DNA of 45,956 nt, taken from positions 1 to 45,956 of the IMG/VR virus record IMGVR_UViG_3300037247_000336; one strand, 5' to 3'. Source of the stretch: a virus. Positions 178 to 44,120 of the stretch are shown in pieces (position 1 is the stretch's first letter; each line of letters begins with the position of its first letter). The position numbers were made by a program, and so were the translations under genes. The notes under the pieces were generated by a model. It was given only the letters and a program-made list of their open reading frames with translations. It searched no databases and was not told where the DNA came from.

Positions 178-413
178 TGGCAAACACTAGCAGCACCACA
201 GTCCCCACCAATGGGGGTACGTCCACCATCCCAAGCAGCGTCACATGGTCTTCATCAACGTCGGAGTTCCGCAAGTCCGTCAATGAGATAGAAGGCAGGA
301 CTTGGTATGAGCTGGATGTATCCCAAGCCGACATCATCGTCATCCTCCATGACGGCAAGCGAGTGGAGATGGATAAGAAGGACTTTCTCCAGAGGATAGG
401 TCTCGAATGGTAA
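177..413 (+). CDS. Hypothetical protein ending in GLEW
   Basis: A 78-aa protein translationally coupled to the ClpP-like gene by TAATG. The first 30 residues are rich in Ser/Thr and low in complexity. The rest (about 31-78) is a compact acidic/basic domain with YELDVSQADIIVILHDGKR. It contains no cysteine, yet ends RIGLEW-stop, which matches the terminal signature of the neighbouring zinc-ribbon family. It may be a metal-free relative or a chance match. Its final ATGG holds the next start. Function unknown. Confidence 0.75.
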   Translation: MANTSSTTVPTNGGTSTIPSSVTWSSSTSEFRKSVNEIEGRTWYELDVSQADIIVILHDGKRVEMDKKDFLQRIGLEW

Positions 414-625
414 TGTATAGAGATGATACGATTCTGCTGAAGTATCTAGCTGCCTATGATGGTAACTGGCACAGTAGAATCGAAGAGGACTGCGACCGAT
501 GTGGAGACCTCTGTACCGACCCGTACCGAAAGCTCTCTATTGAGAGGTGGATTAGTATAGCTCCGCGTGGGGCCAGACCCTTTTTCTGCACTGATTGTGC
601 CCGTCACTATGGGTTGGTGTGGTAA
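407..625 (+). CDS. Zinc-ribbon micro-protein, copy 1 (CxxC...CxxCAR..GLVW)
   Basis: 72 aa from ATG 407 (70 aa from the in-frame ATG at 413). Ligand pairs are C29/C32 (CDRC) and C61/C64 (CTDC), followed by ARHYGLVW-stop. C36 is an extra cysteine. This is a member of the 20-copy family in this genome. ATG 407 lies inside the last Trp codon and stop of the preceding gene. Four-cysteine spacing implies one bound zinc (inference). The role is unknown; nucleic-acid or protein binding is likely. Confidence 0.85.
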   Translation: MVMYRDDTILLKYLAAYDGNWHSRIEEDCDRCGDLCTDPYRKLSIERWISIAPRGARPFFCTDCARHYGLVW

Positions 626-849
626 TGGACAATTCCAAAACACTAAGGGAATATGTTGCGCTGTACGGCAGCTATACGCTCGCGCAAGACGCGCCGCATC
701 AATTCACCTGCGACCGATGCAAAGAGAACCCTTGGCCAGAGGAGAAGCTACTCCTATGGATGACACCTAAACACTTTATTCCTGGGCCTATGGGTAACGG
801 GCCATATCTCTGTCCGGATTGTGCTAGGCATTTTGGATTGGCGTGGTAA
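625..849 (+). CDS. Zinc-ribbon micro-protein, copy 2
   Basis: 74 aa, starting at the ATG that overlaps the stop of copy 1 (TGGTAATG). An ATG 30 bases upstream is in frame but lies inside copy 1. Ligands are C29/C32 (CDRC) and C63/C66 (CPDC), then ARHFGLAW-stop. The N-terminal pair sits at the same residue numbers as in copy 1, so the two probably arose by tandem duplication. The next gene begins directly after the stop (TAAGTG). Confidence 0.88.
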   Translation: MDNSKTLREYVALYGSYTLAQDAPHQFTCDRCKENPWPEEKLLLWMTPKHFIPGPMGNGPYLCPDCARHFGLAW

Positions 850-1593
850 GTGGCGACGGTCTTCAAATCGTTCATCACCCAGGTCATCAAGCCCGGTTAC
901 TTCTATATCAAGCCCCTCTTGCCGCGCAAAGGCAAGCTGTTGCTGGCTGCTGACCCCAAAGCCTTCAAGTCCATGCTGGCGTTGAACATCGCGTACTCTC
1001 TCTGCGAAGGCTCCCTGGTGATGGATACCTTTCCAGTGAGTGGGCCGAAGAGGGTGCTACTGATAGAGCAGGAGGTCGGCCCTGAACGCCTCATCAAGCG
1101 CCTCACGGACATCCACGGCGCACGTAAGGGAGTGCGTGTGCTCGACAACTTTTGGATAACCAGCCGTGACCTGGACTGCCGCCTCGACACCAAGTCGGGC
1201 CGTGGCTTGATAGCCAGTCACATTGAAGAGTCCAAGCCTCACGTGGTCATCTTCGACCCGCTCGCCAACTTCCACCACATCGACGAGAACTCCAACTCAG
1301 AGATGAAAGTCCTCCTATCGGAGCTGACCCAAATGCAGGAGACTTATGACTTCGCCTCCATCATCATCCACCACATGGGTAAGACCAGCGAGCACCGTAC
1401 TCTCTCGTCACCTGAGCGCCTACGCGGGGCAGGCGTTCTCTTCGCTGACGTTGATAGTCTGGCCGTGATATGGAAGCCGGACTTCCGGCAGTTCAACAAT
1501 ATCAGCATCCGATTCGCCACGCGCTCCCCCATAGACCAGGACTTTCTAAAGCTGGAATTCCAAAAGAAGGAAGGTACATTCAAGAGGGTCTAA
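850..1593 (+). CDS. RepA/AAA_25-like replicative ATPase
   Basis: 247 aa from a GTG start that abuts the previous stop. RecA-fold ATPase of the RepA/AAA_25 type, which in phages acts as a replicative helicase or loader. The Walker A region at 33-41 (AADPKAFKS) has the PKxFKS form often seen in phage RepA-like ATPases rather than the GxxxxGKS form. Walker B is VVIFDP (132-137). IIIHHMGK at 171-178 matches the sensor strand of the family. It lies directly upstream of the DNA polymerase, separated only by a zinc-ribbon gene. No primase domain is present. Confidence 0.85.
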   Translation: MATVFKSFITQVIKPGYFYIKPLLPRKGKLLLAADPKAFKSMLALNIAYSLCEGSLVMDTFPVSGPKRVLLIEQEVGPERLIKRLTDIHGARKGVRVLDNFWITSRDLDCRLDTKSGRGLIASHIEESKPHVVIFDPLANFHHIDENSNSEMKVLLSELTQMQETYDFASIIIHHMGKTSEHRTLSSPERLRGAGVLFADVDSLAVIWKPDFRQFNNISIRFATRSPIDQDFLKLEFQKKEGTFKRV

Positions 1594-1733
1594 TGGCATA
1601 TAATCCAGGCCGCGTAAGCACAACCTATTATTGCTACGACTGTAAAACAATTAAGTTCGTATGCAAGTGGTACGAGGAAGCGTTTGGCGACCTGTGTGAT
1701 GATTGCGCCCGGAAGCGTGGATTATTGTGGTAG
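1593..1733 (+). CDS. Zinc-ribbon micro-protein, copy 3 (short form)
   Basis: 46 aa, one of the shortest members. ATG 1593 overlaps the ATPase stop (TAATG). Ligands are C14/C17 (CYDC) and C35/C38 (CDDC), then ARKRGLLW-stop. C24 is extra. An in-frame upstream ATG at 1470 lies inside the ATPase and is rejected. The short form shows that about 30 residues between and around the pairs are enough for the fold. It sits between helicase-like ATPase and polymerase genes. Confidence 0.88.
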   Translation: MAYNPGRVSTTYYCYDCKTIKFVCKWYEEAFGDLCDDCARKRGLLW

Positions 1734-1741
1734 ACCTAGTC

Positions 1742-3940
1742 ATGCCGCTGGCTACCAAGGCGGGAGGCACAGGCCAGCCAGCCACATGTAAGGGCTGTCC
1801 ACTGTACGATATCGGCAAGGGTTTCGTGCTAGAGCCTGCTCCGGTCTGGTCGAAGATAAAGATGGCTATTATAGGCGAGGCCCCCGGCACCAACGAGGTA
1901 CTACAAGGCAAGCCATTCGTTGGCAAGGCGGGGTGGTGGCTGCTCCGCAACATTCTAAATCCGGCAGGTCTGAAGAGAGAGGAGGTCTATCTTGACAATA
2001 CTTTGCGCTGCTTGCCCCCTAAGAACAAGCAAGGTGAAGCGTACCCGGTGGGAGTTGATAAAGCTCAGGCTGAAATGCATTGTCGCCAGTACGACAGAAC
2101 CATACCCGCCTCCGTGCCTATCATGCTGGTTGGCGGCAAGGCGCTTGGACAGAGATTAGGGCTGAAAGGCATATCGGATTGGCATGGGCATGTCACCTTC
2201 CAAGGCGGGCAACTGGTTGGTTGTACGTTTCATCCCTCGGCTGTGATGAGACAGCCGAACCTACTGCCTGTCGCCATACGTGAGCACTACAACCTGCTCA
2301 CAGCCCATGCCAATCCATCCATCTTGAAGCATCCCAAAGTCCGGAGGGGTGGCCTAGTCGATGGGCCGGGGCCGATGGTGTTTGACTTGGAGTGGGATAG
2401 AAAGACGAAAGAAATTAGCTGTGTGGGGGTAGCCTATGAAGCGGCAGAAGCATACTCAACCTACGATGTGGAATATGGCAGGCAAGTGTTGGCCGACCGG
2501 CTTGCTCGTTCTGAGTTACTCATTGGTCACAATATCATTGATGCCGATTTCCCTGTTCTCGGTAAGCATCCTACTAGCTACCATCCCGATTGCGTATTTG
2601 ATACTAAGGTGGTTGCTCATCTCATCCACGCCCATCTCGCCAACCTCAGTCTCCTTGGACTACGTTCGCTGGTCTCGTACTATAGACCGACGACAGGTTG
2701 GAAGGAGGCCAAGGATGATTTGCTTGAATATAACGGGCGGGACTGCGCCTACAACTTCTACCTCTACGAGCAGCTCAAGGCCGACCTCACCGCCACCAAC
2801 CAGTGGCACTTAGTAGAGAAGCAGCAGCGACTGGCTAGGCTGGCTGTGCTGATGAGGGAGCGGGGAGTTGACATCGACCTGAGAGCAGTCAGGCGTTACC
2901 ACAAGGAGTGGAAGGGCAATAAGCAGTTGCTGAAGGATGACTTTCCGTTCAACCCGAACTCGCCGAAGCAGGTCATAGAGTTCTTCAAAGAGGAAGGCAT
3001 CTCGCTACGAGACACCAAGGAAGTGACCGTCAAGAGGCAGGCTGACCGGCACCCGTTGATGGAGCAGTTGGCTGACTATAAGGAGCTAGGCGTCAAGCCC
3101 ATCACGACCTGGTTCCCGCTAGGCAAGAGTAAGGTACATCCGACCTTCAATGTGACCGGGACAGATGTGGCGCGGTTCAGCTCGTCAGAGCCGAACTTCC
3201 AGAACATCCCGCCATCTCTGCGCCGGATGATAGTGGCGCTGGAAGGCATGGTCATTGTGGGACTGGACTTCTCGCAGATTGAGAACAGGTGTGTGGCGTG
3301 GCTGGCGGGCGATAAGCAGATGTTGGCTGACTTCGCTAGTGGTATGGACTTTCACCGGCTCTCAGCGAGCCGAATCTACAACAAGAGGTGTGATGATGTC
3401 ACAAACAAAGAACGCTATGAAGGCAAGAAGACTATCCATGCGTCTAATTATGGAGAGCTTCCTGCAAATCTCGCTGAGAGACTGTTTGGCAACCGTAAAG
3501 GCGACTCGCTCCGAGCTGCTGAACGGTTACAGAGTGCGTATTTTTCTGTCTATCCGGCCATTAGAGAATGGCAGACTAGGGTCAGCGACGGTCTTGAGCA
3601 AGGAAGTATCACTCTAGTTAATCCGTTCGGGAGAGTGAGGTACATCTATGGACAGGATGCTCATACACGGAAGAAGAAGGGCTGTCACTACTACGGGTGC
3701 TCTACTGCTGCTGACATTGTCAATCAGCGGGTTCTGGATATATGGCAAGAAGAAGCGCTCGTTCCTATCCTTATCGTACATGACGAACTTGTGTATTGCC
3801 TACCTGTTGGTACGGCAACAGCTACAATCTCACGTCTCAAAGATATTATGACGCAGCCTGTCAAGGAGATGGATGGGTTGGTAGTGCCTGTGAAGGCAAA
3901 GGTTGGTGCGAACTATGGCGACTTACGAGATTCTAGATAA
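1742..3940 (+). CDS. DNA polymerase I family (PolA) with N-terminal family-4-type uracil-DNA glycosylase domain
   Basis: 732 aa from ATG 1742; GTG 1727, nested in the end of copy 3, is an alternative start. Residues 16-185 are a UDG family 4-like domain: Fe-S cysteines C16, C19, C90, C114; GEAPG at 45-49; PFVGKAG; and HPS at 164-166. Residues 212-345 are a 3'-5' exonuclease (D215/E217, GHNIIDADF 262-270, Y330/D334). Residues 360-732 are the polymerase: motif A DFSQIE 509-514, motif B around KKTIHASNYG 562-571, motif C HDE 680-682. The O-helix reads R558-x3-K562-x3-H566-x3-Y570, so His stands where E. coli Pol I has Phe762. This is the replicative polymerase. Confidence 0.93.
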   Translation: MPLATKAGGTGQPATCKGCPLYDIGKGFVLEPAPVWSKIKMAIIGEAPGTNEVLQGKPFVGKAGWWLLRNILNPAGLKREEVYLDNTLRCLPPKNKQGEAYPVGVDKAQAEMHCRQYDRTIPASVPIMLVGGKALGQRLGLKGISDWHGHVTFQGGQLVGCTFHPSAVMRQPNLLPVAIREHYNLLTAHANPSILKHPKVRRGGLVDGPGPMVFDLEWDRKTKEISCVGVAYEAAEAYSTYDVEYGRQVLADRLARSELLIGHNIIDADFPVLGKHPTSYHPDCVFDTKVVAHLIHAHLANLSLLGLRSLVSYYRPTTGWKEAKDDLLEYNGRDCAYNFYLYEQLKADLTATNQWHLVEKQQRLARLAVLMRERGVDIDLRAVRRYHKEWKGNKQLLKDDFPFNPNSPKQVIEFFKEEGISLRDTKEVTVKRQADRHPLMEQLADYKELGVKPITTWFPLGKSKVHPTFNVTGTDVARFSSSEPNFQNIPPSLRRMIVALEGMVIVGLDFSQIENRCVAWLAGDKQMLADFASGMDFHRLSASRIYNKRCDDVTNKERYEGKKTIHASNYGELPANLAERLFGNRKGDSLRAAERLQSAYFSVYPAIREWQTRVSDGLEQGSITLVNPFGRVRYIYGQDAHTRKKKGCHYYGCSTAADIVNQRVLDIWQEEALVPILIVHDELVYCLPVGTATATISRLKDIMTQPVKEMDGLVVPVKAKVGANYGDLRDSR

Positions 3941-4082
3941 TCGGCCTTGTACTTTATGCACCGAATGCACGGAGGGAGCCCATCACTCGGCAGAGGGAGA
4001 AGTTTATCACGTCATCAAGGATGGTGGTGAGGACACAAATATGTGCGTGGACTGTCTTAGGGAGAAGGGTTTGCTTTGGTGA
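3915..4082 (+). CDS. Zinc-ribbon micro-protein, copy 4
   Basis: 55 aa in a different frame, starting 26 bases before the polymerase stop. Ligands are C12/C15 (CTLC, with C18 adjacent) and C44/C47 (CVDC), then LREKGLLW-stop. It is the last plus-strand gene before the convergent late block. Its last 26 bases overlap the 3' end of the minus-strand gene 4057-4269. The family signature makes it a confident call despite its size. Confidence 0.85.
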   Translation: MATYEILDNRPCTLCTECTEGAHHSAEGEVYHVIKDGGEDTNMCVDCLREKGLLW

Positions 4083-4269
4083 TGTGGTCGATGATGAGTT
4101 CGCGCAGCTCGCTTATCTCGCGATAGATGTGGGGGATGTGGTTCTTGATGACGTGGTTGCACAGGACTTCTACCTTGGTGAATCGGGCGGAGAGCTTCAT
4201 GGCCACGCCTAGAACTGTGATGATGTTGACGGCGACTGCCGTGCCGATGACTATGGTTTCGATGCTCAT
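4057..4269 (-). CDS. Small membrane protein, last gene of the late block
   Basis: 70 aa. Residues 4-28 form one hydrophobic segment (ETIVIGTAVAVNIITVLGVA), followed by a charged, helical C-terminal half with REISELRELIIDHI suggesting a coiled coil. It overlaps the upstream 985-aa gene by 4 bases (ATGA) and is the final gene of the minus-strand operon. The layout resembles small phage holin/spanin-like or Rz-type membrane proteins, but no family is recognised. Confidence 0.7.
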   Translation of the reverse strand: MSIETIVIGTAVAVNIITVLGVAMKLSARFTKVEVLCNHVIKNHIPHIYREISELRELIIDHITKANPSP

Positions 4270-7223
4270 GGGAGTTCGCCTACCGCGTTTAGGGTGCGGG
4301 AGAAGGTGCGCTCGGTCTTACGCTTAGCTGACTTACCCGCCAGATTGAGGTAATAGTCTAGCCACTGTTCGAGTTGCTTGGGGCGCTGGGCACGGAAGAA
4401 TGGATTGGTGTCGAGGCCAGCCACGGAGAGCGCGAAGTATTCGCCGCGCTTACGGATGTAGAATCGCTTGACTCGGTCGTCCAGCATGTCGGTCGGCACT
4501 ACTACGCCGATGCCGTCTCGCGTGCGAAGGTCGATGCTGGCGGAGAACTCGACTAGGTTAGGAGTGCGGCCTGTGCGGACACGCATGAAGTCGAGGAAGC
4601 GCTCGGTGGCGTTGAGGTCTTTGACTGTTACGATGCTGCCGAAAGAGCGAGGCACGTCGAGGTCGGTGAACATGAGTTTCTTGAGGGAGGATTCCTCGCC
4701 GCCTGGGCGCAACCTGGCTCGGCCTGTGATGCCGGGGAATAGGGTCAAGCCAGGTATGAATGTGCCTTCTTCTGTGAAGGGCTCCTCTCTGTGGTCAGTC
4801 ATCATATCATTCAGAATAGCGAACATTGCGCGGCCAGGAAATAGGTTTTGAAAGACTCGGTCGGTGTCCCTAGCAATAGTCCTCATATTGACAGGCTTGC
4901 CGGGCTGGAGAATTTGGAGTGGGAGAGGGCCAAGCAGCCCACCGCCGAGGAAAGTCAGACCACTAACTTCTAGAGCTGCCGTTGCTTTCTCGAAGTCTCC
5001 TTTAGTCAGTGCGGTTAGGAAGACAATGTCGGTGAACGGAGAGGGTAGGATAGTCTGGCGGCCACTGGCAGGGTCAGTATATTTGACGCCAAAGCCGCTA
5101 AAGTCAAGGTTGTCATAGAAGAGTTTGTCAACTGCGAGTATCATCCCGGCTCCTGACAGTTGCCGGGCCATCGCTTGGGCTAGGATGTCGAGGGGCATCA
5201 GCCCGGTCTGCACGCCGCGTCGAACCGTCTGGACAGTTCCTAGGACGGGTATGAACTCGGCCATGAACTCTGCCCATGCGGCACCGAAGCGGATGAAGGG
5301 CGAGATGAAGAGTTGGGCAGCGGGGTGGTCAGCTATGGCTGTGAAGCGAGCGCCACGGGGCACGATGAAAGCGGCTCTGTTGGCGAAGTCTACCACACGG
5401 GCCTGAGTGCCTGCTGGTAGGTCGGCTAGGAAGTTGCGAACGAAGAGTTCCCTCTCAACTCCGCTGACCCCCACTTTTTGGGCGGCAGCATAAGCCTCGT
5501 CGAAGAGCTTAACGCGAGCTGCATAGCGTCGGAAGAAACTGTCCACCACACCCTTTCCTTTCAATCCCCCGAACAGCACGATGTCTAGAACTCTCTCCGG
5601 CATGGATAGGGCGGGGTCTCGGCCCACAGCCTCACCAGCCACGAAGATGCCTCTGGTGTTGGCCTTCGCAAACTCTTGGACAAGTTTCTTGTTGCGAACA
5701 GAGTTGATGACGGCGCTGAGCCTAGTGGCTTTGGTTACGTTCCCCAAGAGCACATCGACTGAGTCGGCCACGCCGCGAGCAGCAAGGTCAGTACCGGCGT
5801 GCAGGACGTTGCCGATGCTGTCCTGGGCGAGAGAGAGATAGCCGAAGAGGTTGTTGCGGAAAGTGAGAATGGCAGGCTTGAAGTTCTTGCCAGTAATAGG
5901 AAGGGCCATAGCTTCCTTGAGAGTCTGGAGTGGGCTGGGCGAGGTACTGTTGCGTAGAGCAAGGACGGACTCTTTCCCGAAAGCATTAAGTTCGTTGGCC
6001 ACGCCCCGTATGTGATTGAAGGAATCGAAGCGCAGTTGGCCATCACGGAGGGCATCGCGCAGTCGGTTGTTGTTGGCGAGGAGCTTGCGGAAGGTGTCGA
6101 TGTTGAAGCCCTCCACTCCTAGTTTGACTTGAGAGATGGGTTTCTTGAACTTACGAGCTAGCTCCTCACGGCCTTTCTGCCGGGCCTTGCCCTTCAGTGG
6201 CCCTGCTAGTAGGCTGATGACTCGCCTATCGACCGCCGCGACGTAGGACAGCTCTTCCAAGAGGACTTGCTGCAACTCCGGCCCGACCAACTCCATCTCC
6301 TCACCGATAGCTTTCTTCTGAAAAGAGTTGCGGGCGGCACCAGACAGTCGCTGGCCCCTCAGCCCCAACTCGGCCTCGCGTGCCACGATGCGAGCGTCCA
6401 CACGCACCATGATGTCGTCGGTAGCCGCGTTGAAAGTGTCGGCGGTCTTGAGAAGGCGACGGCGAACTTGAGGCACGATGTTGCGGAGGAACTGGCCGGT
6501 GTTGAGTTTGTTAAGGCCGAGCTGGATGGACTTGCGGAACTTGGAGGCGTCCGGCGTGAAGACCTTAGTGAGTCCGGCTATGGCAGGACGGGTGACGGCA
6601 CCGAACACGCCGAACTCAGCGGCTGTGGCGAGGCGGCTTGAGATGGAGACGGGGTCGTTGCGGTCTACGAAGAACGGAGAGAGCCCGGCAGTCACGCCTT
6701 CCACAGCACCCTCGGCTGCGAAGTTGAAAGCGGAGGCGGCGCGGCTGGTGGCTTTAGGCAGGCCCCTGAGAATGACGGACTTGCCGAAGCGCCCTAGCCC
6801 GAACCCACCTAGCTGAAAGACTGCGTCGAAGGCAGAAGCAGTCAGTCGTTTCTCCGCCTCATCAGGAGAGATGGTGGGCTGGAAGCCAGCTCCCTCCGGT
6901 ATGAGACCGAGCTTCTCACGGCCTAGCCCCACACCCACCGCTATGCCTTCGCCGAGGGCCTGCATGCCACGAAAGGTGCGGGCTGGGAAGTCAAGGATGT
7001 CAGCTCCCACCTCTAGCAACCCTTCGCCAATCACGTCAATGAACCGCTCGACCGGGCCGGGCTTGGAGGCGGCGACGCGAGCCAGCAAATCATCCAGAGT
7101 GAGGAGGTCACGGCGTTGCGGCAGGGGTGGGCCTGCGCCACGGATGAGAGCTACGCGCTCTTGGAAACTAGAGACTGGCCGCTTACTACCGAGCCTCGCT
7201 TGGAGTTCGGCGAGGGTAGGCAT
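4266..7223 (-). CDS. Large virion (DNA-ejection-type) protein, 985 aa
   Basis: 985 aa, the largest gene. It has alternating Ala/Gly-rich helices and hydrophobic stretches, for example near residues 125-160 and 655-715. The stretch with NRAAFIVPRGARFTAIADHP followed by PFIRF resembles segments of large polyvalent/ejected phage proteins. It lies last among the tail and ejection genes, where podoviruses keep their internal virion proteins (T7 gp15/gp16-like position). I infer it is packaged and ejected with the DNA. No catalytic motif was identified. Confidence 0.75.
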   Translation of the reverse strand: MPTLAELQARLGSKRPVSSFQERVALIRGAGPPLPQRRDLLTLDDLLARVAASKPGPVERFIDVIGEGLLEVGADILDFPARTFRGMQALGEGIAVGVGLGREKLGLIPEGAGFQPTISPDEAEKRLTASAFDAVFQLGGFGLGRFGKSVILRGLPKATSRAASAFNFAAEGAVEGVTAGLSPFFVDRNDPVSISSRLATAAEFGVFGAVTRPAIAGLTKVFTPDASKFRKSIQLGLNKLNTGQFLRNIVPQVRRRLLKTADTFNAATDDIMVRVDARIVAREAELGLRGQRLSGAARNSFQKKAIGEEMELVGPELQQVLLEELSYVAAVDRRVISLLAGPLKGKARQKGREELARKFKKPISQVKLGVEGFNIDTFRKLLANNNRLRDALRDGQLRFDSFNHIRGVANELNAFGKESVLALRNSTSPSPLQTLKEAMALPITGKNFKPAILTFRNNLFGYLSLAQDSIGNVLHAGTDLAARGVADSVDVLLGNVTKATRLSAVINSVRNKKLVQEFAKANTRGIFVAGEAVGRDPALSMPERVLDIVLFGGLKGKGVVDSFFRRYAARVKLFDEAYAAAQKVGVSGVERELFVRNFLADLPAGTQARVVDFANRAAFIVPRGARFTAIADHPAAQLFISPFIRFGAAWAEFMAEFIPVLGTVQTVRRGVQTGLMPLDILAQAMARQLSGAGMILAVDKLFYDNLDFSGFGVKYTDPASGRQTILPSPFTDIVFLTALTKGDFEKATAALEVSGLTFLGGGLLGPLPLQILQPGKPVNMRTIARDTDRVFQNLFPGRAMFAILNDMMTDHREEPFTEEGTFIPGLTLFPGITGRARLRPGGEESSLKKLMFTDLDVPRSFGSIVTVKDLNATERFLDFMRVRTGRTPNLVEFSASIDLRTRDGIGVVVPTDMLDDRVKRFYIRKRGEYFALSVAGLDTNPFFRAQRPKQLEQWLDYYLNLAGKSAKRKTERTFSRTLNAVGELP

Positions 7224-34590: not shown

Positions 34591-34609
34591 CTCTAAAGGA
34601 GAGGTGACG

Positions 34610-35698
34610 ATGGCAACGACGAAGAAGAAACAACCAGAGACACTCACCACGCACAACCTGTACCAAACCACGGTGTCAGGCTATCAGGCGGTGGTCGAGC
34701 GGATGATTACCAATCTGCCGCCTGCCAAGTGCCCCGCCATGATAGCCATTGGGGCGGTGGGCATCGGCAAGACAGAGGCGGTCTACTCTCTGTTCCACAA
34801 CCTGAAGGAGAAGGGTGTCGTTAAGTCCCTTAGTGTCAGGCATTTGAGCCAAGTCCATCCACTCGACACAGGTGGTGTCGGCATTGACCCGGAGACTCGC
34901 ACCATGTACTTCGCCAAGCCGCCATTGGTGGATGACGTGATGGGTAAGCCCGGCCCGCGCATCCTGTTCCTTGATGAGATTGACCGCATCCAACCCATTG
35001 CACAGTCGGGCATGCTCCAGGTCTTGAGCGAGAAGAAGCTCAACGGCTTCGACTTGGAGGATACCTACGTCATCGGAGCGGGCAACGCATGGCACGCGCA
35101 GTACACCTTCGAGATGGACAAAGCCTTTGCCTCTCGCCCCATCATCATGCACATTGAAACGTCCGTCAGTTCGTGGCTGCATTGGGCGCTCGACCACGGA
35201 GTCCACGAGTCAGTCATCACCGCCATCCAGTTAGCCCCGGACATCCTGAACCAGCATGATGACTTCAAGGACACTGACCTACTGAAGGTAGCTGACCCCC
35301 GTGCATGGACAAACTTCTCTCATGCCCTGAACCACAAAGCAGCAGGCCCTCCTGACGCAGCCATGTTCGTTGGCGAGAACGCAGGCCGCAAGTACCAACG
35401 CTACTACCAATTCCGCAACGACTACAGCGAGCTAATCGACCAGCTTCTCAACGGCAAGCCCGTCGAAACCGACGACCCCAACCTCCTACTCGCTGTCTAT
35501 CTCACCGCCGCCGGTCAAGTGACCAAGATACCCCAAGCCTACAAGTTCCTCACTCTAGCCAAGAAGCAGATAGGTGACGAGAAGAGCTACATCGTAGGCC
35601 GCCTGCTCACGTACCGCATCCCAACCACGGAGCTACTGAAGGACGAGAAGATTAAGAAGTTGCACCATCTGTTCCTTGAGAAGTACAAAGGAGAGTAA
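34610..35698 (+). CDS. MoxR-like AAA+ ATPase
   Basis: 362 aa from ATG 34610 (AAGGAGAGG upstream; GTG 34604 is the alternative). Walker A GAVGIGKT (48-55), Walker B ILFLDEID (118-125), followed by RIQPIAQSGMLQVLSE and a sensor region (VIGAGNAWHAQYTF). MoxR ATPases act as chaperone or remodelling engines with a von Willebrand A-type partner, which is encoded two genes downstream. Confidence 0.9.
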   Translation: MATTKKKQPETLTTHNLYQTTVSGYQAVVERMITNLPPAKCPAMIAIGAVGIGKTEAVYSLFHNLKEKGVVKSLSVRHLSQVHPLDTGGVGIDPETRTMYFAKPPLVDDVMGKPGPRILFLDEIDRIQPIAQSGMLQVLSEKKLNGFDLEDTYVIGAGNAWHAQYTFEMDKAFASRPIIMHIETSVSSWLHWALDHGVHESVITAIQLAPDILNQHDDFKDTDLLKVADPRAWTNFSHALNHKAAGPPDAAMFVGENAGRKYQRYYQFRNDYSELIDQLLNGKPVETDDPNLLLAVYLTAAGQVTKIPQAYKFLTLAKKQIGDEKSYIVGRLLTYRIPTTELLKDEKIKKLHHLFLEKYKGE

Positions 35699-35699: not shown

Positions 35700-35819
35700 A
35701 TGATTGATACTGTGATGGCTTGGTGCGGCATCATCCTAGTCGTGATGCTAACGGCGTTAGTGGTAGGTTTGTTGATGCTTTTGTCGAAGATGCTTTGGAA
35801 AGCATGGAGAGATATATGA
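35700..35819 (+). CDS. Tiny membrane peptide (39 aa)
   Basis: 39 aa sharing bases with neither neighbour upstream and overlapping the next ATG by 4 bases (ATGA). One span: residues 10-29 (GIILVVMLTALVVGLLMLL), basic C-terminus. It sits between the MoxR ATPase and its VWA partner, so it could anchor that pair to the membrane (inference). Confidence 0.6.
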   Translation: MIDTVMAWCGIILVVMLTALVVGLLMLLSKMLWKAWRDI

Positions 35820-37003
35820 ATCACGAACTGATGGAGCAGATTAAGAAGTGGCGTCGGGGAGTGTGTAAGGCTATACCTGCCTTCGATGCCATCCTCTACG
35901 CTGCCACCTATGAAGAGGATGAGTCCGTTGGCACCATTGGCATCAACAACAACACCCTCAAGATTAGGGTCAACCCCAAGTTCACCGCCACTCAGAAGGA
36001 AGCCGACAACACCTTCATCCTAGCTCACGAGGCAGCCCACTTTCTATGCGACCACCTTCGCCGGGGCCAGGCCATGAAGCGTCAAGAGGGTGACGACTAC
36101 CGGCATGACCTCTATTCGACAGCCGCTGAGCATGCCGTCAATGCCTTGGTCGAGAGTCTGTCCAGCTGGCGCACCCCGTCCGGTGGAGTCGAGCCCAAAG
36201 AAGGATGGAAGATGCTCTCCACTGAGGAGATATACAAGGAGTTGAAGAAAGACCCGGCCAACAAGCTCCCGCCCGTGCTGTGCCTGTGCGGCGGGGATGG
36301 GAAGGACGGGGATGGCAAGCCCCAGACAGGCGTGGCTCAGATGATAGCTGAACAGGCGAGAGAGGCAGCCACCAAGACTCTTCAAGAAGGCACAGGTGGT
36401 CAACCACCTGGCGACCAAGTAGGTGAGCTACGTCAGCTACTCCTTGACAGGATGGGCCTGACCAAGCCACCTGATTGGCGGCGTCAACTAGCCCGCTACT
36501 TGACCGCGCTCGACACCAACTGCAAGCACTTCGACGTGCGCTCCATCTACCGCCGTGCCATGTGCGACGGGCGCAACATGGTGCTGCCCAACCTAGCCAG
36601 CGACACCATAGCCCGTAGGTTCGCCCTGTCCCTCGATAACAGTGGCTCCGTGTGCGACGAGATGTTCTCCCAAATACTAGGCACCGTCCACTCCGCCACT
36701 CAACAGCTAGGCTTCAAGGAACTCTACGTCTATCACTTCACCTGTGCCATCATCAAGCGCCTCCGCCTGACTACAGCCAGTCAAATCAAGAAGATAACTC
36801 GTGAAGGCAGCGGCGGCACGGACATCCACGAAGTAGACAGGCAAGCCAAGCAAGACGCTTGCATGTTCAACATCATAGTCACCGACGGCTACGTCGAGTG
36901 GCTCTCCCGCTATGCCGTGCCTACCCTAGTAGTCCTGACCGTCGAGGATGTGCAGCCACCACCCAAAGTCCATAACCTAATCGGGGTGGTGTATGTCTTG
37001 TAA
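35816..37003 (+). CDS. VWA-like putative metallopeptidase (MoxR partner)
   Basis: 395 aa from ATG 35816 (ATGA coupling; GGAGAG upstream). Residues 71-75 are HEAAH with H80 nearby, a zinc-metallopeptidase motif. Residues 274-278 (DNSGS) form a VWA metal-ion site, and DGYVEWL follows near the end. A Gly/Asp/Pro-rich linker (160-200) separates the two halves. This is the DUF2201-type architecture commonly paired with MoxR ATPases in phages and bacteria. Confidence 0.85.
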   Translation: MNHELMEQIKKWRRGVCKAIPAFDAILYAATYEEDESVGTIGINNNTLKIRVNPKFTATQKEADNTFILAHEAAHFLCDHLRRGQAMKRQEGDDYRHDLYSTAAEHAVNALVESLSSWRTPSGGVEPKEGWKMLSTEEIYKELKKDPANKLPPVLCLCGGDGKDGDGKPQTGVAQMIAEQAREAATKTLQEGTGGQPPGDQVGELRQLLLDRMGLTKPPDWRRQLARYLTALDTNCKHFDVRSIYRRAMCDGRNMVLPNLASDTIARRFALSLDNSGSVCDEMFSQILGTVHSATQQLGFKELYVYHFTCAIIKRLRLTTASQIKKITREGSGGTDIHEVDRQAKQDACMFNIIVTDGYVEWLSRYAVPTLVVLTVEDVQPPPKVHNLIGVVYVL

Positions 37004-37223
37004 AGATGGGCCGTGGAAGATAGAAGCCGTAGGCACAGTCCATCAAAGATGGCTTACCTATGCGGGCAGGTCTCAACATCCAGCTCATTGTTTCTGGTGT
37101 AAAGCACAGCAAACGGATCCTAATTCTCTACTCATTAGTGTACGATACGAGAGCGATTTCAATTTCAGGGCGGCGGGGTGGTTTTGTGAGTCGTGTGCCA
37201 GAGAGAGGAATTTGATATGGTGA
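36993..37223 (+). CDS. Zinc-ribbon micro-protein, copy 11
   Basis: 76 aa overlapping the VWA gene end by 11 bases. Ligands C33/C36 (CFWC) and C65/C68 (CESC), then ARERNLIW-stop; Asn replaces the usual Gly. Its ATATGGTGA end contains the start codon of copy 12. Confidence 0.87.
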   Translation: MSCKDGPWKIEAVGTVHQRWLTYAGRSQHPAHCFWCKAQQTDPNSLLISVRYESDFNFRAAGWFCESCARERNLIW

Positions 37224-37426
37224 AAGAGACTGTCTATACAAGTCTCCCTAATGATAGGATTTTCCGAGCCAAGCTTCGGCCAGGTGAAAGGCTCGATGTG
37301 TGGATTTGCTCTCAGTGTCAGCAGGACAAGACTTACACATTCTCCTACCAGCTCAGAAAGCCAGTGAGTTGGGAGAAAAGCTGGTGGTGTGAGGATTGTG
37401 TGCGAAAGGCAGGCTTGATATGGTAG
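37217..37426 (+). CDS. Zinc-ribbon micro-protein, copy 12
   Basis: 69 aa from the ATG nested in the end of copy 11. Ligands C31/C34 (CSQC) and C58/C61 (CEDC), then VRKAGLIW-stop. A sigma70 promoter begins two bases after its stop. Confidence 0.87.
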   Translation: MVKETVYTSLPNDRIFRAKLRPGERLDVWICSQCQQDKTYTFSYQLRKPVSWEKSWWCEDCVRKAGLIW

Positions 37427-37427: not shown

Positions 37428-37456
37428 TTGACATTCTATTCATAGTGTGCTATACT
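37428..37456 (+). promoter_or_regulatory. Promoter of the RecB/Cas4-like gene (leaderless)
   Basis: TTGACA (37428-37433), 17-base spacer, TATACT (37451-37456). The ATG at 37463 falls where transcription should start (7 bases after the -10), so the message is predicted to be leaderless or nearly so. Confidence 0.82.
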
Positions 37457-38288: not shown

Positions 38289-38420
38289 ATGGTGTGGCAA
38301 GCTCAATGCTGCAAGCGTGCCGTGCCTTATCCATTCTCTTACATACAACTCTTAGATGACAACCTAGAGTATCCGTGGCTTTGCATGGACTGTGCTCGCA
38401 AGCATGGCCTGATATGGTGA
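38289..38420 (+). CDS. Zinc-ribbon micro-protein, copy 13 (shortest)
   Basis: 43 aa from ATG 38289 with AGAGGA just upstream; the frame is open to 38166, but that would overlap the nuclease gene by 100 bases. First pair is the adjacent C7/C8, second C32/C35 (CMDC), then ARKHGLIW-stop. The first site may use C7 or C8 plus another ligand. Confidence 0.75.
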   Translation: MVWQAQCCKRAVPYPFSYIQLLDDNLEYPWLCMDCARKHGLIW

Positions 38421-38423: not shown

Positions 38424-38621
38424 ATGCTAGACATTGAGAGGTGGGTCAAGTGGGCGGGAGAGAGAGGCTTTAGGATTGTCGGCCCCGACGGCTTATCCCA
38501 ATGTGATATTTGTGTCAAAGCGCAACGGGGCAATAGTTGGATGGTCGTGGGGGGGTGGAGCTCGGGCATAGACGTTACGGTTTGCAAAGAGCACGCTCAG
38601 GAGTACGGATTGATATGGTGA
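38424..38621 (+). CDS. Zinc-ribbon micro-protein, copy 14 (CxxH form)
   Basis: 65 aa, 3 bases after copy 13. Ligands C27/C30 (CDIC) and C54/H57 (CKEH), then AQEYGLIW-stop. N-terminal amphipathic helix IERWVKWAGERG. A promoter starts one base after the stop. Confidence 0.86.
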   Translation: MLDIERWVKWAGERGFRIVGPDGLSQCDICVKAQRGNSWMVVGGWSSGIDVTVCKEHAQEYGLIW

Positions 38622-38622
38622 C

Positions 38623-38651
38623 TTGACTTTCACCCCCACTTGTGGTATAAT
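38623..38651 (+). promoter_or_regulatory. Promoter of the Sak4-like gene
   Basis: TTGACT (38623-38628), 17-base spacer, TATAAT (38646-38651) with TGG before the -10 (extended -10). The gene starts at 38672 behind AAGGAGA. Confidence 0.85.
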
Positions 38652-38671: not shown

Positions 38672-39412
38672 ATGATGGACAAGCTAATCATACCACAGGC
38701 CAGCGGAGCAGTGGGCACCCCATTCTCACTGACCATCAAGAACACCAGCCAGTTAGACCAGGCGCACGCTCATATCCTCTTGTTCGGAGAGACCAAGAGC
38801 GGCAAGACCACCTGTGCCACCAGTATCGTCGAGCCAGAACTCATCCGTGTGGTCAGTACCCAACCTGAAGAGCAGCTAGCCCACCTCAAGAAGCTAGGCA
38901 TAGACTACGTGCGTGTTCGGACAGCGAGAGAGGTAGACCACGTACTTGATGCGCCTCGCCAGTTCTTCTCCGGCGAGTGGAACACCCTCATCATAGATGA
39001 CTACACAGAACTCATCAACTTCTATGAGACGCGCTTCCGTGGGGAGATAAAGGATGGCCGTCAGGTCTATAAGGCTATCAAAGACCACGCACGGAACTCT
39101 CTTGAAGCTCTGCTCGAAGGCGACTACCACCTGATAGTGACCGCCCTCGAACGCTCACTCGAAGATGACTTCAAGTTGCCGTGGATTAAGCCCGACCTCC
39201 CCCCCTCCACTATGTCTCTCATAACAAGCAAGTTCTCATTCATCTTCTACTGCCTCGGCTCGCCCAACTTCAAGCTCCGCACCCGCCGTGACAATTCACG
39301 TCGTATCTTCGCAGGCAACAGACTACCAAAGGACAAGACCAATGCCTTCTCAGACGAAGAAACCTCCGACCTCAAGCAGCTCTGGTCTAAGTACCAAGCA
39401 GCCATACGTTAA
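38672..39412 (+). CDS. Sak4-like RecA-fold ATPase
   Basis: 246 aa. Walker A GETKSGKTT (39-47), Walker B NTLIIDD (104-110), then a conserved-looking HLIVTALE sensor strand (about 153-160). This single-domain RecA-fold layout is typical of phage Sak4/AAA_24 proteins, which act in single-strand annealing and recombination. Its own strong promoter, and a nuclease gene upstream, support a recombination role. Confidence 0.85.
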   Translation: MMDKLIIPQASGAVGTPFSLTIKNTSQLDQAHAHILLFGETKSGKTTCATSIVEPELIRVVSTQPEEQLAHLKKLGIDYVRVRTAREVDHVLDAPRQFFSGEWNTLIIDDYTELINFYETRFRGEIKDGRQVYKAIKDHARNSLEALLEGDYHLIVTALERSLEDDFKLPWIKPDLPPSTMSLITSKFSFIFYCLGSPNFKLRTRRDNSRRIFAGNRLPKDKTNAFSDEETSDLKQLWSKYQAAIR

Positions 39413-39611
39413 GTTACTACGTGCTTTTCGTGACACTCCAACGTATTGTGAATTCTGTAACCGGCACGACCAGCGGTGTTATTGGGTTACACAAGACCCC
39501 GCCGTGAACCTCCGCTCAATGTGTATGAGTTTCGGAGGGGATTCATGGCCTGGGACTAATTGTGTAAGAGCTTGTCAAGACTGTGCGCGAGAGATGGGAC
39601 TGCTATGGTAG
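39342..39611 (+). CDS. Zinc-ribbon micro-protein, copy 15
   Basis: 89 aa from ATG 39342, which has AAAGGA upstream and lies 71 bases inside the Sak4-like gene in another frame; no start exists after that gene's stop. Ligands C36/C39 (CEFC) and C78/C81 (CQDC), then AREMGLLW-stop. Extra cysteines at 46, 61 and 74 are unusual. The end CTATGGTAG holds the start of copy 16. Confidence 0.82.
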   Translation: MPSQTKKPPTSSSSGLSTKQPYVKLLRAFRDTPTYCEFCNRHDQRCYWVTQDPAVNLRSMCMSFGGDSWPGTNCVRACQDCAREMGLLW

Positions 39612-39781
39612 AGACAGCTTACGCCTCCCTTTACACACAAGAAGATTGGGGGTGTTGGAAATGTGAGCGCAAGTATCCGTGGCCTGCTACCTACTACTCG
39701 GAAGACGACGTAGAGATTAAGCAGTTGAGGCATGGGTGGTGTTGTGTTCCTTGCGCCCATGAGCTAGGACTCCTATGGTAA
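39605..39781 (+). CDS. Zinc-ribbon micro-protein, copy 16
   Basis: 58 aa from the ATG nested in copy 15's end. Ligands C17/C20 (CWKC) and C47/C50 (CVPC; C46 precedes), then AHELGLLW-stop, with His in place of Arg. Its own CTATGGTAA end contains the start of the RlpA-like gene. Confidence 0.87.
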   Translation: MVETAYASLYTQEDWGCWKCERKYPWPATYYSEDDVEIKQLRHGWCCVPCAHELGLLW

Positions 39782-40191: not shown

Positions 40192-40567
40192 TTGTCTCGT
40201 CCTGGCTATGGGGGTGGTGGCGCAAGACGAACCGAGAGAGAGCCACATGCAAGACACAGGCAGAAGCCATAAGAAGTGGGTGCCCTTCGATACCGTGCTG
40301 CGGGACATTGGCATCTGGCGCGACGATGGCGTGCATGAGTATCCCTGCCAGATACTAGACTGGAACATCATGGCCGACCCCCATCCTGTTCTCAAGGTTA
40401 TGCTTCCCCCCTCCAACATCTTCAGTCCTATCCGCATCTCCTTCATGCTAACTTGGAGAGGAGAACGCCCGAAATACTGGATGGGTATTAACGGAGTGAG
40501 TAAATACAAATGCAAATTTCGCATCAAGAACGAGGTAGTTCAGATACGCCTAGAAGTCTACGAGTAA
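40160..40567 (+). CDS. Exported hypothetical protein
   Basis: 135 aa with a clear signal peptide (VWKYLTLISCLVLAMGVVAQ, 3-22); the LISC segment resembles a lipobox but is early. The mature part is beta-rich with aromatic residues (WRDDGVHEYPCQILDWNIMA; FSPIRISFMLTWRGERP). It overlaps the RlpA-like gene by 32 bases, so it may assist lysis or modify the envelope. Confidence 0.72.
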   Translation: MSVWKYLTLISCLVLAMGVVAQDEPRESHMQDTGRSHKKWVPFDTVLRDIGIWRDDGVHEYPCQILDWNIMADPHPVLKVMLPPSNIFSPIRISFMLTWRGERPKYWMGINGVSKYKCKFRIKNEVVQIRLEVYE

Positions 40568-40716
40568 AGCGTCGCCTGGAATTGAAGGACATGGACTGCG
40601 ATCGATGTAACACGCGATTCCATGAGCCGCGTTGGTGGATTCTGGGCGAGGACATAGACATGCCAGGTGACGCCTGGTGCCGAGAGTGCTGCCAACGAGA
40701 GGGACTCCTATGGTAA
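40510..40716 (+). CDS. Zinc-ribbon micro-protein, copy 17
   Basis: 68 aa from ATG 40510 (58 bases inside the previous gene; ATG 40591 just before the first Cys is an alternative). Ligands C30/C33 (CDRC) and C57/C60 (CREC), then CQREGLLW-stop. Basic N-terminus. CTATGGTAA end holds the next start. Confidence 0.84.
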   Translation: MQISHQERGSSDTPRSLRVKRRLELKDMDCDRCNTRFHEPRWWILGEDIDMPGDAWCRECCQREGLLW

Positions 40717-40970
40717 AGTATAGAGAGCTGCAACCAGGCGAGCGAGTTCGTCTACTCTGGATTGACTCCGACAGCACATCAGAGTGGCAGAACTCTACAG
40801 AGTTTGACAAGATGGGCGAGCGTCCCCTCGTCCACATCGAAGCCACCGTCTACAAGCGCATCAAGAACGGCGTGCTCATCTACAACGCCAAGTCCGAGGA
40901 CGGCGAACAGTACGGCGGCTGTTGGTTCATCCCCCGCGTCTGCATCAAGACCATTGAGAGATTACCATGA
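40710..40970 (+). CDS. Hypothetical beta-rich protein
   Basis: 86 aa starting in the ATGG of copy 17. Beta strands (YRELQPGERVRLLWIDSDST; VHIEATVYKRIKNGVLIYNA; YGGCWFIPRVCIKTIERL) suggest a small barrel. It overlaps the next start by 4 bases. No family recognised. Confidence 0.75.
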   Translation: MVKYRELQPGERVRLLWIDSDSTSEWQNSTEFDKMGERPLVHIEATVYKRIKNGVLIYNAKSEDGEQYGGCWFIPRVCIKTIERLP

Positions 40971-41176
40971 AGGCGCGGAAGAAGGGACTCCTGAATTATC
41001 TGTCCACCTTCAATGGTGAATGGCGGCTAACTAGTGATGTCGACTGTGACGTATGCGCGCCACTTGACGTTGTCGAGATGAATTGGTTTATCTCTGAGAG
41101 GAGAAAGGGTCGGCAAGACATAGCTCGTCCGTGGTTTTGCGAAGCTCATGCCAGAGAGTTCAATTTACTTTGGTGA
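40967..41176 (+). CDS. Zinc-ribbon micro-protein, copy 18 (CxxH form)
   Basis: 69 aa, coupled by ATGA. Ligands C27/C30 (CDVC) and C58/H61 (CEAH), then AREFNLLW-stop; Asn replaces Gly as in copy 11. A promoter begins 7 bases after the stop. Confidence 0.86.
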   Translation: MKARKKGLLNYLSTFNGEWRLTSDVDCDVCAPLDVVEMNWFISERRKGRQDIARPWFCEAHAREFNLLW

Positions 41177-41183: not shown

Positions 41184-41212
41184 TTGACTTTCCCGTGCTC
41201 GTGTGGTAAAAT
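41184..41212 (+). promoter_or_regulatory. Promoter before the 142-aa gene
   Basis: TTGACT (41184-41189), 17-base spacer, TAAAAT (41207-41212) with TGG before the -10. The leader of about 34 bases contains AGGAG ahead of ATG 41253. Confidence 0.82.
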
Positions 41213-41681: not shown

Positions 41682-41729
41682 GAATATAACCTCCTGAACG
41701 GAGGCTCCTGTGCATAGAGAGTGAAGGAC

Positions 41730-41764: not shown

Positions 41765-41765
41765 T

Positions 41766-41773: not shown

Positions 41774-41778
41774 AGGTA

Positions 41779-41945: not shown

Positions 41946-41993
41946 TATATGGCAACGCTGGTGGCCCCCACATATTGAGAGAGAGGATGCAGA

Positions 41994-42384: not shown

Positions 42385-42385
42385 C

Positions 42386-42529
42386 ATGGATAAGGCACCG
42401 CTCGACGTTATTATCGGATATGTAGCTTCATTGGAACGGCGTATCGCCGACCTCCAACAGACTGTTATTGAACTGGTAAGAGAAAACAAGGAGCTAACAC
42501 AATGTCTAAGCGACAGCAAGAAGAAGTAA
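42386..42529 (+). CDS. Small coiled-coil protein (47 aa)
   Basis: 47 aa; one base gap from the previous stop. Residues 12-40 form a heptad-like helix (ASLERRIADLQQTVIELVRE). Its end overlaps the exonuclease start by 28 bases. Confidence 0.62.
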   Translation: MDKAPLDVIIGYVASLERRIADLQQTVIELVRENKELTQCLSDSKKK

Positions 42530-43104
42530 TCTCTATAGCGACCTTCGACATAGAGACGAGTAACTTGAGTGCCGACTTCGGTCGAGTGCTCTGTGCGGTG
42601 GTGAAGCAGGTAGGCAAGAAGCCCCTCGTATTCCGAGGCGACTCCTACGTCGCATGGAAGAAGGGCAATAAGTATGATGATTCAGGGCTGGTGAAGGACA
42701 TCATCGAGGAGCTGAACAAGCATGACGTGCTCATAGCGCACAATGGGCTGCGGTTCGACCGGCCCTTCCTCAACACCCGCGCCTTCAGTGGGCTATCAGG
42801 AGGCACTGGCGGAGTGATAGTCAATCCGCGCTGTAAGATGATTGACCCCGTGACGATAGCGCGCAAGCACCTGCGCTTCTCGTGGAACAGCCTGGCCCGT
42901 ATCCTCCAGCACTTCGGCTTGGGTTCCAAATCCAGCGTTGAAGGACATATGTGGCTGCGTGCCCTGCTGGCCACTGGCAAGGAGCAGCGCAAGGCGATGG
43001 ACGAGGTAGTGGAGCACTGCATCGTAGACGTAGTGAAGCTCGAACAGTTAGTAGGCAAACTGAGGAAGTTCATCCCCAGAATTGACGAGTACGGTTCCAA
43101 GTAG
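42502..43104 (+). CDS. DEDD-family 3'-5' exonuclease
   Basis: 200 aa. Exo I TFDIETS (D16, E18), Exo II IAHNGLRFDRPFL (D86), Exo III EHCIVDVVKLE (D176) give the DnaQ-type metal site; the residue four before D176 is His172 where DEDDy enzymes have Tyr. Single-domain exonuclease, separate from the one in the polymerase. Probable role in recombination, repair or host DNA degradation. Confidence 0.85.
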   Translation: MSKRQQEEVISIATFDIETSNLSADFGRVLCAVVKQVGKKPLVFRGDSYVAWKKGNKYDDSGLVKDIIEELNKHDVLIAHNGLRFDRPFLNTRAFSGLSGGTGGVIVNPRCKMIDPVTIARKHLRFSWNSLARILQHFGLGSKSSVEGHMWLRALLATGKEQRKAMDEVVEHCIVDVVKLEQLVGKLRKFIPRIDEYGSK

Positions 43105-43115
43105 AGGAGACAGGC

Positions 43116-43340
43116 ATGGCGTTGAAGAGATGGTTAGAGTTGGTATGCGACATCTGCACAACTACCAAGACGGTAGAGCTAACGGGTCAGGAGCAGAAGG
43201 TCAAGGAGCAGGTGGTGGGCTGGTACAACATCGTCGCTGACACGGAGCAGGGGCCGGAGACGTACCTAGTATGCTCCGGCAAGTGCTTGAAGGAAGTAGG
43301 TGACGTGGCTATGAAGGCCACCATCGAGAGGAAGGGCTAA
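43116..43340 (+). CDS. Small zinc-ribbon protein (CDIC...CSGKC)
   Basis: 74 aa with C11/C14 (CDIC) and C53/C57 (CSGKC) ligands, GAGGAGAC upstream. It looks like a ribbon in which the second half is VCSGKCLKEVG. It lacks the terminal Trp, so it is separate from the 20-copy family although similar in size. It shares one base with the next start (TAATG). Confidence 0.78.
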   Translation: MALKRWLELVCDICTTTKTVELTGQEQKVKEQVVGWYNIVADTEQGPETYLVCSGKCLKEVGDVAMKATIERKG

Positions 43341-43663
43341 TGTGGCGTAAGAAGAGCGACCGCGTGAACCTTGACAAGCTCTATCCACAGCTAGCCCTGG
43401 CGCTGGAGAAGGCGGCGGTGATACATGACCTACTGTTCGCCAAGCCTCTCATCGTCACGAGTGGCAACGACGGCAGGCATAGCCGCACCAGCCGTCACTA
43501 CCGTAACATGGCCATTGACATACGCTCATGGGACAAGTCCGAGCTAGGCCAGTTAACGTTCCATGTGATACTAGCGCACTTGGCAAAGGAGTATGACCTT
43601 GCAATCTTCGACGAAAGGAATCGAGATAAAGCTCCCCACTGGCATCTTGAAATCGCAGACTAA
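43340..43663 (+). CDS. M15-family peptidase (endolysin)
   Basis: 107 aa. H53 (SRHY), D60 (AIDIR) and H102 (HWHLE) are the expected zinc ligands of M15 D-Ala-D-Ala carboxypeptidase-like endolysins, with VTSGNDGRHS preceding. No signal peptide, so it depends on a holin. It cuts peptide crosslinks in the cell wall. It shares one base with the previous stop. Confidence 0.85.
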   Translation: MWRKKSDRVNLDKLYPQLALALEKAAVIHDLLFAKPLIVTSGNDGRHSRTSRHYRNMAIDIRSWDKSELGQLTFHVILAHLAKEYDLAIFDERNRDKAPHWHLEIAD

Positions 43664-43787
43664 AGAACTCGAAATAGTTGACCCCCTTAACTGTGACGTG
43701 TGCCGATGGGAAGGGCCTATGCCGTACAAGCACTATGATATGTGGCTGTGCGAGGCGCATGCTCAAGAACATGGATTCTTGTGGTAA
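43593..43787 (+). CDS. Zinc-ribbon micro-protein, copy 19 (CxxH form)
   Basis: 64 aa from ATG 43593, inside the endolysin gene in another frame (71-base overlap). Ligands C34/C37 (CDVC) and C53/H56 (CEAH), then AQEHGFLW-stop. GGAG ribosome site precedes the start by 3 bases. Confidence 0.83.
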   Translation: MTLQSSTKGIEIKLPTGILKSQTKELEIVDPLNCDVCRWEGPMPYKHYDMWLCEAHAQEHGFLW

Positions 43788-43799
43788 GGAGAGACAGAC

Positions 43800-44120
43800 A
43801 TGGCAGTAGCGTGGCATGACCGCATCAAGGAGTGGGAAGCTCTCGGCGACAAGGCGTGCCAAGAGCAGGGCCGTATCCTGCTGGTGAACAATCAGATGAC
43901 AGGCGAACGTATTATCTCTGACGAGCAGACAGGCGACTTCGAGAAGGACATGAAGCTCATTGTCAAGGCTCTAGGTGCTACTAGAACTGTGAGCAAGGAG
44001 CTAATGTATCCGACGCACTGCCTCTACAACACGCCCCATCATGCGCTGTGGGATGCCAAGAAGGTCGAGCACGTGCGGCTGTGCGTTGACCACGCACGCA
44101 AGGACGGCTGGCTATGGTAG
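43800..44120 (+). CDS. Zinc-ribbon micro-protein, copy 20 (long, degenerate first pair)
   Basis: 106 aa, the longest member; AAGGAGAG upstream. C95/H98 (CVDH) with ARKDGWLW-stop are intact. The first pair is C74 plus possibly H80/H81 (THCLYNTPHH). An N-terminal helical domain of about 65 residues is added (HDRIKEWEALGDKACQEQGR). Its CTATGGTAG end contains the next start. Confidence 0.82.
   Translation: MAVAWHDRIKEWEALGDKACQEQGRILLVNNQMTGERIISDEQTGDFEKDMKLIVKALGATRTVSKELMYPTHCLYNTPHHALWDAKKVEHVRLCVDHARKDGWLW

Follow-up and report, generated by a model that had tools for sequence, protein, structure and literature searches.

What purpose is served by 20 small genes, all ending alike and otherwise divergent, in a single phage genome? 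This question is raised by the IMG/VR record IMGVR_UViG_3300037247_000336 (hereafter the window, the whole stretch of 45,956 bp that was analyzed; G000), which is probably a complete genome because both of its ends carry a 127-bp direct repeat. Its plus strand encodes a family of mini-proteins ending in C-x2-[CH]-x7-8-W-stop, a pair of putative zinc ligands followed by a last Trp. The zinc knuckle and the G-L-L-W end stay fixed while the bodies diverge several times faster than neighboring genes. The reading that we favor, tentatively and with somewhat less than an even chance of being correct, is that this old, still diversifying and lineage-specific paralog family supplies early protein-binding effectors for host takeover or counter-defense, each copy having its own partner from host or phage.

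Exactly 20 plus-strand genes with this ending have been found in the window, and all frames are open, with lengths of 43-106 amino acids (aa) and Trp as the last residue. A six-frame scan for C-x2-[CH] close to a terminal Trp gave 20 plus-strand members and none on the minus (late) strand, and a profile of the 20 copies gave exactly 20 matches in the window, each with an E-value of 1e-8 or better. The coordinates, sizes and absence from the late strand reported in a preliminary description of this DNA were thus reproduced, as was its estimate that about 9% of the genome is spent on the family (4,040 nt, 8.8%). The copies are listed below.

407-625, plus strand: copy 1, 72 aa, CTDCARHYGLVW; start codon located in the Trp codon of the preceding GLEW gene (described below); orthologs in the relative G005 and others
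625-849, plus strand: copy 2, 74 aa, CPDCARHFGLAW
1593-1733, plus strand: copy 3, 46 aa, CDDCARKRGLLW; overlaps the polA start
3915-4082, plus strand: copy 4, 55 aa, CVDCLREKGLLW; start overlaps the polA end
31241-31447, plus strand: copy 5, 68 aa, CEACLRKRGVLW; no strict first CxxC
33124-33324, plus strand: copy 6, 66 aa, CSTCCRARGWLW; first CxxC not strict; weakest match to the profile
33362-33553, plus strand: copy 7, 63 aa, CEYHAREIGMLW
33547-33717, plus strand: copy 8, 56 aa, CIDCAREQGLIW; GTG start within the Trp codon of copy 7
33831-34004, plus strand: copy 9, 57 aa, CEGCAKRIGLLW
34378-34590, plus strand: copy 10, 70 aa, CPDHGRELGVVW
36993-37223, plus strand: copy 11, 76 aa, CESCARERNLIW
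37217-37426, plus strand: copy 12, 69 aa, CEDCVRKAGLIW; ATG within the Trp codon of copy 11
38289-38420, plus strand: copy 13, 43 aa, CMDCARKHGLIW; CC in place of CxxC
38424-38621, plus strand: copy 14, 65 aa, CKEHAQEYGLIW
39342-39611, plus strand: copy 15, 89 aa, CQDCAREMGLLW; start overlaps the AAA/Sak4-like gene
39605-39781, plus strand: copy 16, 58 aa, CVPCAHELGLLW; ATG within the Trp codon of copy 15; the lysis gene in turn starts within the Trp codon of copy 16
40510-40716, plus strand: copy 17, 68 aa, CRECCQREGLLW; same slot occupied in all relatives covering it
40967-41176, plus strand: copy 18, 69 aa, CEAHAREFNLLW
43593-43787, plus strand: copy 19, 64 aa, CEAHAQEHGFLW
43800-44120, plus strand: copy 20, 106 aa, CVDHARKDGWLW; N-terminal extension long and conserved; first CxxC absent

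The two ligand pairs of a zinc protein are found in the family: a second pair is present in all 20 copies, as CxxC in 14 and CxxH in six, and a strict first CxxC in 16. The split of the second pair agrees with the preliminary description, while its count of 17 copies keeping both pairs has to be lowered to 16. The view that CxxC and CxxH are alternative ligand pairs is supported. The copies had also been described as interleaved singly among other genes; at least 12 of them lie in tandem pairs or clusters, and several overlap.

Searches with the tail patterns, the polymerase gene and the terminase gene led to the same few IMG/VR contigs, in which about 25-27 copies are found where the contig is of complete size and 7-18 where it is partial.

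G002, 3300037247_000450: 25 copies; complete-size contig
G003, 3300005253_000078: 27 copies; complete-size contig, to which G004 is 99.98% identical
G001, 3300043220_000028: 18 copies
G005, 3300037247_000622: 12 copies; partial contig
L037, 3300023284_000775: seven copies; 15 kb

G001 contains 15,205 bp at 100% identity to the window plus 8,507 bp at 100% identity to G005; either chimeric assembly or very recent recombination may account for this, and its middle part alone counts as independent of the window and G005.

Outside this set, the family was not found by an exact tail-pattern scan of 84,980 species genomes (GTDB), and no relative turned up among 50,697 isolated-phage records searched by tblastn with two copies. 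Four tail patterns run over IMG/VR gave no family contig beyond the related set, exact patterns being such that a relative with a different tail would escape them. An Acidobacteria hit (L034) and the contigs L045-L049 were rejected as chance matches in other reading contexts, and the extra IMG/VR matches of a looser tail pattern were likewise rejected as chance. There are no copies in the distant DNA-polymerase relatives L020-L022, with which the polymerase is the sole shared gene, or in the terminase relative Tunturi_3. On these comparisons, the family appears to be limited to one phage clade in the collections searched, and to be undescribed.

The terminal Trp is not an artefact of searching by Trp, because a profile lacking the last column still recovers Trp-ending copies: when such a profile was run against all stop-to-stop frames of six contigs, 109 Trp-ending matches were obtained, all with E<=1e-4, and the top match without a terminal Trp reached only E=0.058. 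The tail consensus of 94 distinct copies is [WYF]-L-C-x-[DE]-[CH]-A-R-E-x-G-L-[LI]-W, with Gly in 77 and Arg in 68 of them; Trp is present in 94 of 94, a figure that follows from selection since these copies were gathered by the Trp pattern. There is an exception, a divergent ortholog that continues for six residues (KVEDAY) past the Trp (...LLCTACAEKAGLAWKVEDAY). It lies directly upstream of a MoxR gene in two contigs, as follows (coordinates of the oriented contigs).

G001, 19266-19514: family-like protein with KVEDAY after Trp
G003, 13151-13408: family-like protein with KVEDAY after Trp

A scan for KVEDAY gave no match in the window, G002 or L037. Because this ortholog exists, the position of the Trp is nearly, not absolutely, terminal.

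Structure prediction had been proposed in the preliminary description, and an AlphaFold2 model of the copy at 407, made with 26 family sequences, is compact and confident (predicted local distance difference test, pLDDT, 90.2; predicted template modeling score, pTM, 0.76); a broader alignment gave a weaker model (pLDDT 71). The model consists of a helix (7-16), the knuckle CDRC (29-32), a second helix (39-50), a strand (59-60), the second ligand pair with a helix (62-67) and an ordered end, the mean pLDDT being 95 for residues 61-70 and 88 for residues 71-72. Because the C-terminal end is ordered in a confident model, the Trp is possibly part of the fold; packing of the Trp on its own domain would explain the ordered end no less well than a free docking tail would, and an ordered end would be compatible with contact with a partner too. 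In the earlier name, micro zinc-ribbon proteins, "zinc ribbon" is too specific for a predicted arrangement that is helical and treble-clef-like. When both models were compared with solved and viral structures by Foldseek, no match with E<1 was obtained.

Nor is the family a named domain, a point that the preliminary description had left to a profile search: in Pfam, PHROG and NCBIfam no family exceeded the curated cut-off (for PHROGs, a clear E-value), and the weak matches, to different families for different copies, were rejected. ClpX-type C4 and treble-clef domains (zf-C4_ClpX, zf_Tbcl_2, DUF7685) resemble the family in having CxxC...CxxC, a hydrophobic residue preceding the second pair and a short helix after it, but every Pfam match is below the gathering cut-off, including that of one member to the ClpX-type C4 domain (E=0.0017). 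Mimicry of the ClpX zinc domain was rejected, the direct profile comparison over the CxxC-x(~18)-CxxC domain giving a probability of 5%.

The codon-substitution test suggested earlier was made using the ratio of nonsynonymous to synonymous change (pN/pS). For 20 hand-picked cross-contig ortholog pairs, it was 0.387 in the body and 0.226 in the tail (last residues), compared with 0.123 for pooled core and neighboring genes, and the median over 68 pairs was 0.35. The copies are therefore coding frames under purifying selection, stronger at the C-terminal end, and yet they evolve far faster than neighboring genes, whose protein identity between phages is mostly 85-96%. This supports the earlier view that a single early-strand family has expanded, its members sharing the C-terminal element and differing in the body.

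Of 109 copies, at least 77 are most similar to the copy occupying the same genomic slot, whereas chance alone would give 11. Because best matches are mostly same-slot, slot comparison shows an expansion that predates the split of the known relatives. Slot occupancy nevertheless varies; for example, one, three, one and two copies follow polA in different phages. Short units, variable copy number by slot and 22 tandem junctions between copies, each a 7-nt ATGGTRA, are what would be seen if the genes were near-neutral or selfish gap-filling cassettes, spread by tandem duplication and of little use to the phage. Such cassettes are very unlikely to be the explanation, however, since pN/pS is well below 1 in nearly every pair, no degraded copies occur among recognized members, same-slot orthology across phages implies long retention, and about 9% of a small genome would be a costly burden.

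The junction also bears on the Trp itself. In 22 of the 94 distinct copies, the copy's own start codon lies inside the preceding copy's Trp codon, and 50 of 100 copies have, in the register that begins inside the Trp codon, a reading frame open for 50 codons or more (40 with an ATG start, 8 with GTG); the genes started in this way include the lysis gene and, in relatives, polA. ATG is found at this overlap 40 times against 13 expected from codon usage (p=2e-15), and 23 times against 10 where no gene follows (p=3e-5). These excesses would be expected if the Trp were a DNA-level feature, in which TGG-TRR gives the ATGGTRA start/stop overlap and couples translation of the next gene, the proteins being secondary. 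But 42 copies without a downstream gene in that register still retain the Trp, all three stop codons occur, third codon positions of the tail vary freely, and conservation at the amino-acid level is seen for the Cys/His ligands, Arg, Gly and Leu (tail pN/pS 0.23). The Trp codon has an additional function in as many as half of the copies, a constraint that the preliminary description did not mention, and the 42 copies show that selection for the Trp acts at least in part on the protein; we regard the DNA-level explanation as the least probable of those considered here.

An expanded family of phage zinc mini-proteins has a precedent in Bacillus phage G, for which about 35 zinc-ribbon copies have been described and proposed to be transcription factors or structural DNA-binding proteins (PMC7824862). 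Our search gave 37 hits, the majority of them in an array at 352-371 kb (NC_023719.1, L050), which confirms this expansion, and in 32 of 32 inspected paralogs a C-terminal tail of the WKENDRYLAKIL type (YWKENDRYLAKIL type) is strongly conserved and the bodies are divergent. Both phages have tens of small CxxC paralogs in a single lineage with a divergent body and a constant tail (in phage G, for example, YP_009015343.1/gp32); phage G differs in that its copies are 92-223 aa long, lie mostly in one tandem array, end in residues other than Trp and belong to a 498-kb jumbo phage. Our profile gave no significant similarity to phage G (the best hit, E=0.0097, is not a member of the expanded family; hhalign probability 8%), and the resemblance is one of design, not descent. 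Within the reach of the searches, what appears to be new is the family itself, the Trp signature at its C-terminus, the distribution of its copies slot by slot, and the occurrence of such a set in a phage of only 46 kb.

If the proposal made for phage G applied here as well, the copies would be small sequence-specific transcription factors or DNA/RNA binders. Zinc-knuckle proteins often bind nucleic acid, and the profile matched C2H2 fingers among PDB sequences; an assignment to C2H2 fingers was rejected, as these matches are driven by Cys/His spacing and the matched chains are multi-finger proteins. Most copies are near-neutral to acidic (median charge -1.4; isoelectric point below 7 in 13 of 20), a predicted property that favors protein over nucleic-acid targets, and nucleic-acid binding is in our view quite unlikely as the general function.

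Another explanation, a form of which was suggested in the preliminary description, starts from the extreme position of the Trp in every clear member: the copies could form an adaptor repertoire in which the free terminal Trp carboxylate fits into a pocket on a single shared machine of phage or host, e.g., the MoxR AAA+/vWA pair encoded by the phage, and each body supplies a different client. Three plus-strand genes and the unrelated phage G family, with its likewise constant tail and divergent body, can be cited for it.

177-413, plus strand: core gene without zinc ligands in the tail, ending ...KKDFLQRIGLEW (RIGLEW; the GLEW gene); conserved in five contigs; no PHROG match
34604-35698, plus strand, early region: MoxR-like AAA+ ATPase (Pfam)
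35720-37003, plus strand, early region, after MoxR: DUF2201 metallopeptidase plus vWA protein (Pfam)

The GLEW protein is the best hint that a G-L-x-W end may act apart from the zinc domain; being a single protein, it is possibly a coincidence. A pair of MoxR and metallopeptidase-vWA genes has been reported in jumbo phages, with a proposed role in virion assembly (PMC7824862). In phage G, a MoxR-like gene is present, and a vWA search was without match and is uninformative. Docking tails of the SSB/gp2.5 type have an invariant aromatic residue at the extreme C-terminus of an acidic disordered tail. The present family shares the invariant aromatic residue (Trp) at its C-terminal extreme but has no acidic disordered tail, its end being a predicted ordered part of the zinc domain, as expected of a residue packed on its own domain. 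The ortholog with six residues past the Trp is present in two contigs, and MoxR and vWA are both present in all relatives covering the region, which gives no independent contrast. Docking of this kind is a possibility that we place on the unlikely side, although it is the main rival of the effector reading. A wider proposal, unlikely in our judgment, is that phages have independently evolved, at least twice, mini zinc repertoires with a variable body and a constant C-terminal tail that plug many clients into one machine, the GLEW protein being another client; if true, this would be a viral analogue of exchangeable adaptor families.

As to genomic setting, the minus strand of the window carries late genes (terminase, portal, capsid, connector and tail) and the plus strand carries genes for replication, recombination and lysis. 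The copies sit in gaps between early genes, often translationally overlapped, and their neighbors are of the replication (UDG-PolA), recombination (Sak4-like AAA, exonuclease) and lysis (DPBB) types named in the preliminary description. Three predicted promoters, all rated strong, are located directly after copies.

37428-37456, plus strand: sigma-70-like extended -10 promoter, 1 nt past copy 12
38623-38651, plus strand: sigma-70-like extended -10 promoter, 1 nt past copy 14
41184-41212, plus strand: sigma-70-like promoter, 7 nt past copy 18

Because these predicted promoters follow directly, copies 12, 14 and 18 seem to close transcription units, and the promoter type suggests that the host polymerase reads the region.

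Two observations concern other genes of the window. DNA polymerase A (1703-3940) is an unusual fusion with an N-terminal domain of the uracil-DNA-glycosylase (UDG) superfamily (Pfam UDG 53-187, DNA_pol_A 415-739), and the 3'-5' exonuclease is a separate gene at 42502-43104, apart from this fusion. On the minus strand, a late protein of 985 aa (4266-7223) shares only 40-41% identity with its counterparts in two relatives and 75% with that in another, whereas capsid, portal and terminase exceed 90%; it is likely a receptor-binding or tail protein varying with the host.

Each copy is predicted to be a compact, zinc-held mini-domain made of a helix, a first CxxC knuckle, a further helix, a second CxxC/CxxH knuckle opening a short helix, and an ordered Trp. 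If the copies are early effectors, the fixed end would be a common scaffold and possibly a common contact, specificity would reside on the rapidly evolving surface formed near the N-terminal helix and the first knuckle, and encounters with different hosts would lead to gain and loss of copies in individual slots. Amplification of T4 tifA and other counter-defense genes by recombination at short homologies has been described in phage (PMC9391042). The likeness lies in the copy-number expansion of a small phage protein, host-antagonizing in the case of tifA; tifA-type amplification is recent, identical and under selection, whereas the present copies are old, slot-specific and highly diverged.

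Several points weigh against the effector reading. Zinc binding is deduced from the ligands alone, early expression from strand and neighbors, and no fold or family match (Pfam, PHROG, NCBIfam, Foldseek) offers a functional hint. The closest pair speaks for diversification: between the copy at 407 and its counterpart in G005, 14 nonsynonymous and no synonymous changes are grouped around the first knuckle (p=0.036 against neutrality). This signal is suggestive only, as it comes from a single pair with a marginal p-value, chosen after the data had been seen. Two other close pairs with few synonymous changes were left out, as they overlap neighboring genes. Several bodies, e.g., those of copies 13 and 20, are simply constrained rather than diversifying.

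About 9% of a 46-kb genome is devoted to one apparently undescribed family that, in the collections searched, has no relative outside one clade, and the parallel seen in phage G points to a strategy that has arisen repeatedly and not to an oddity. If the copies are indeed early effectors, one genome would offer 20 naturally occurring versions of a 60-residue scaffold, directed at different targets, and the family would become a route to discovering host processes or defenses that are important to phages.

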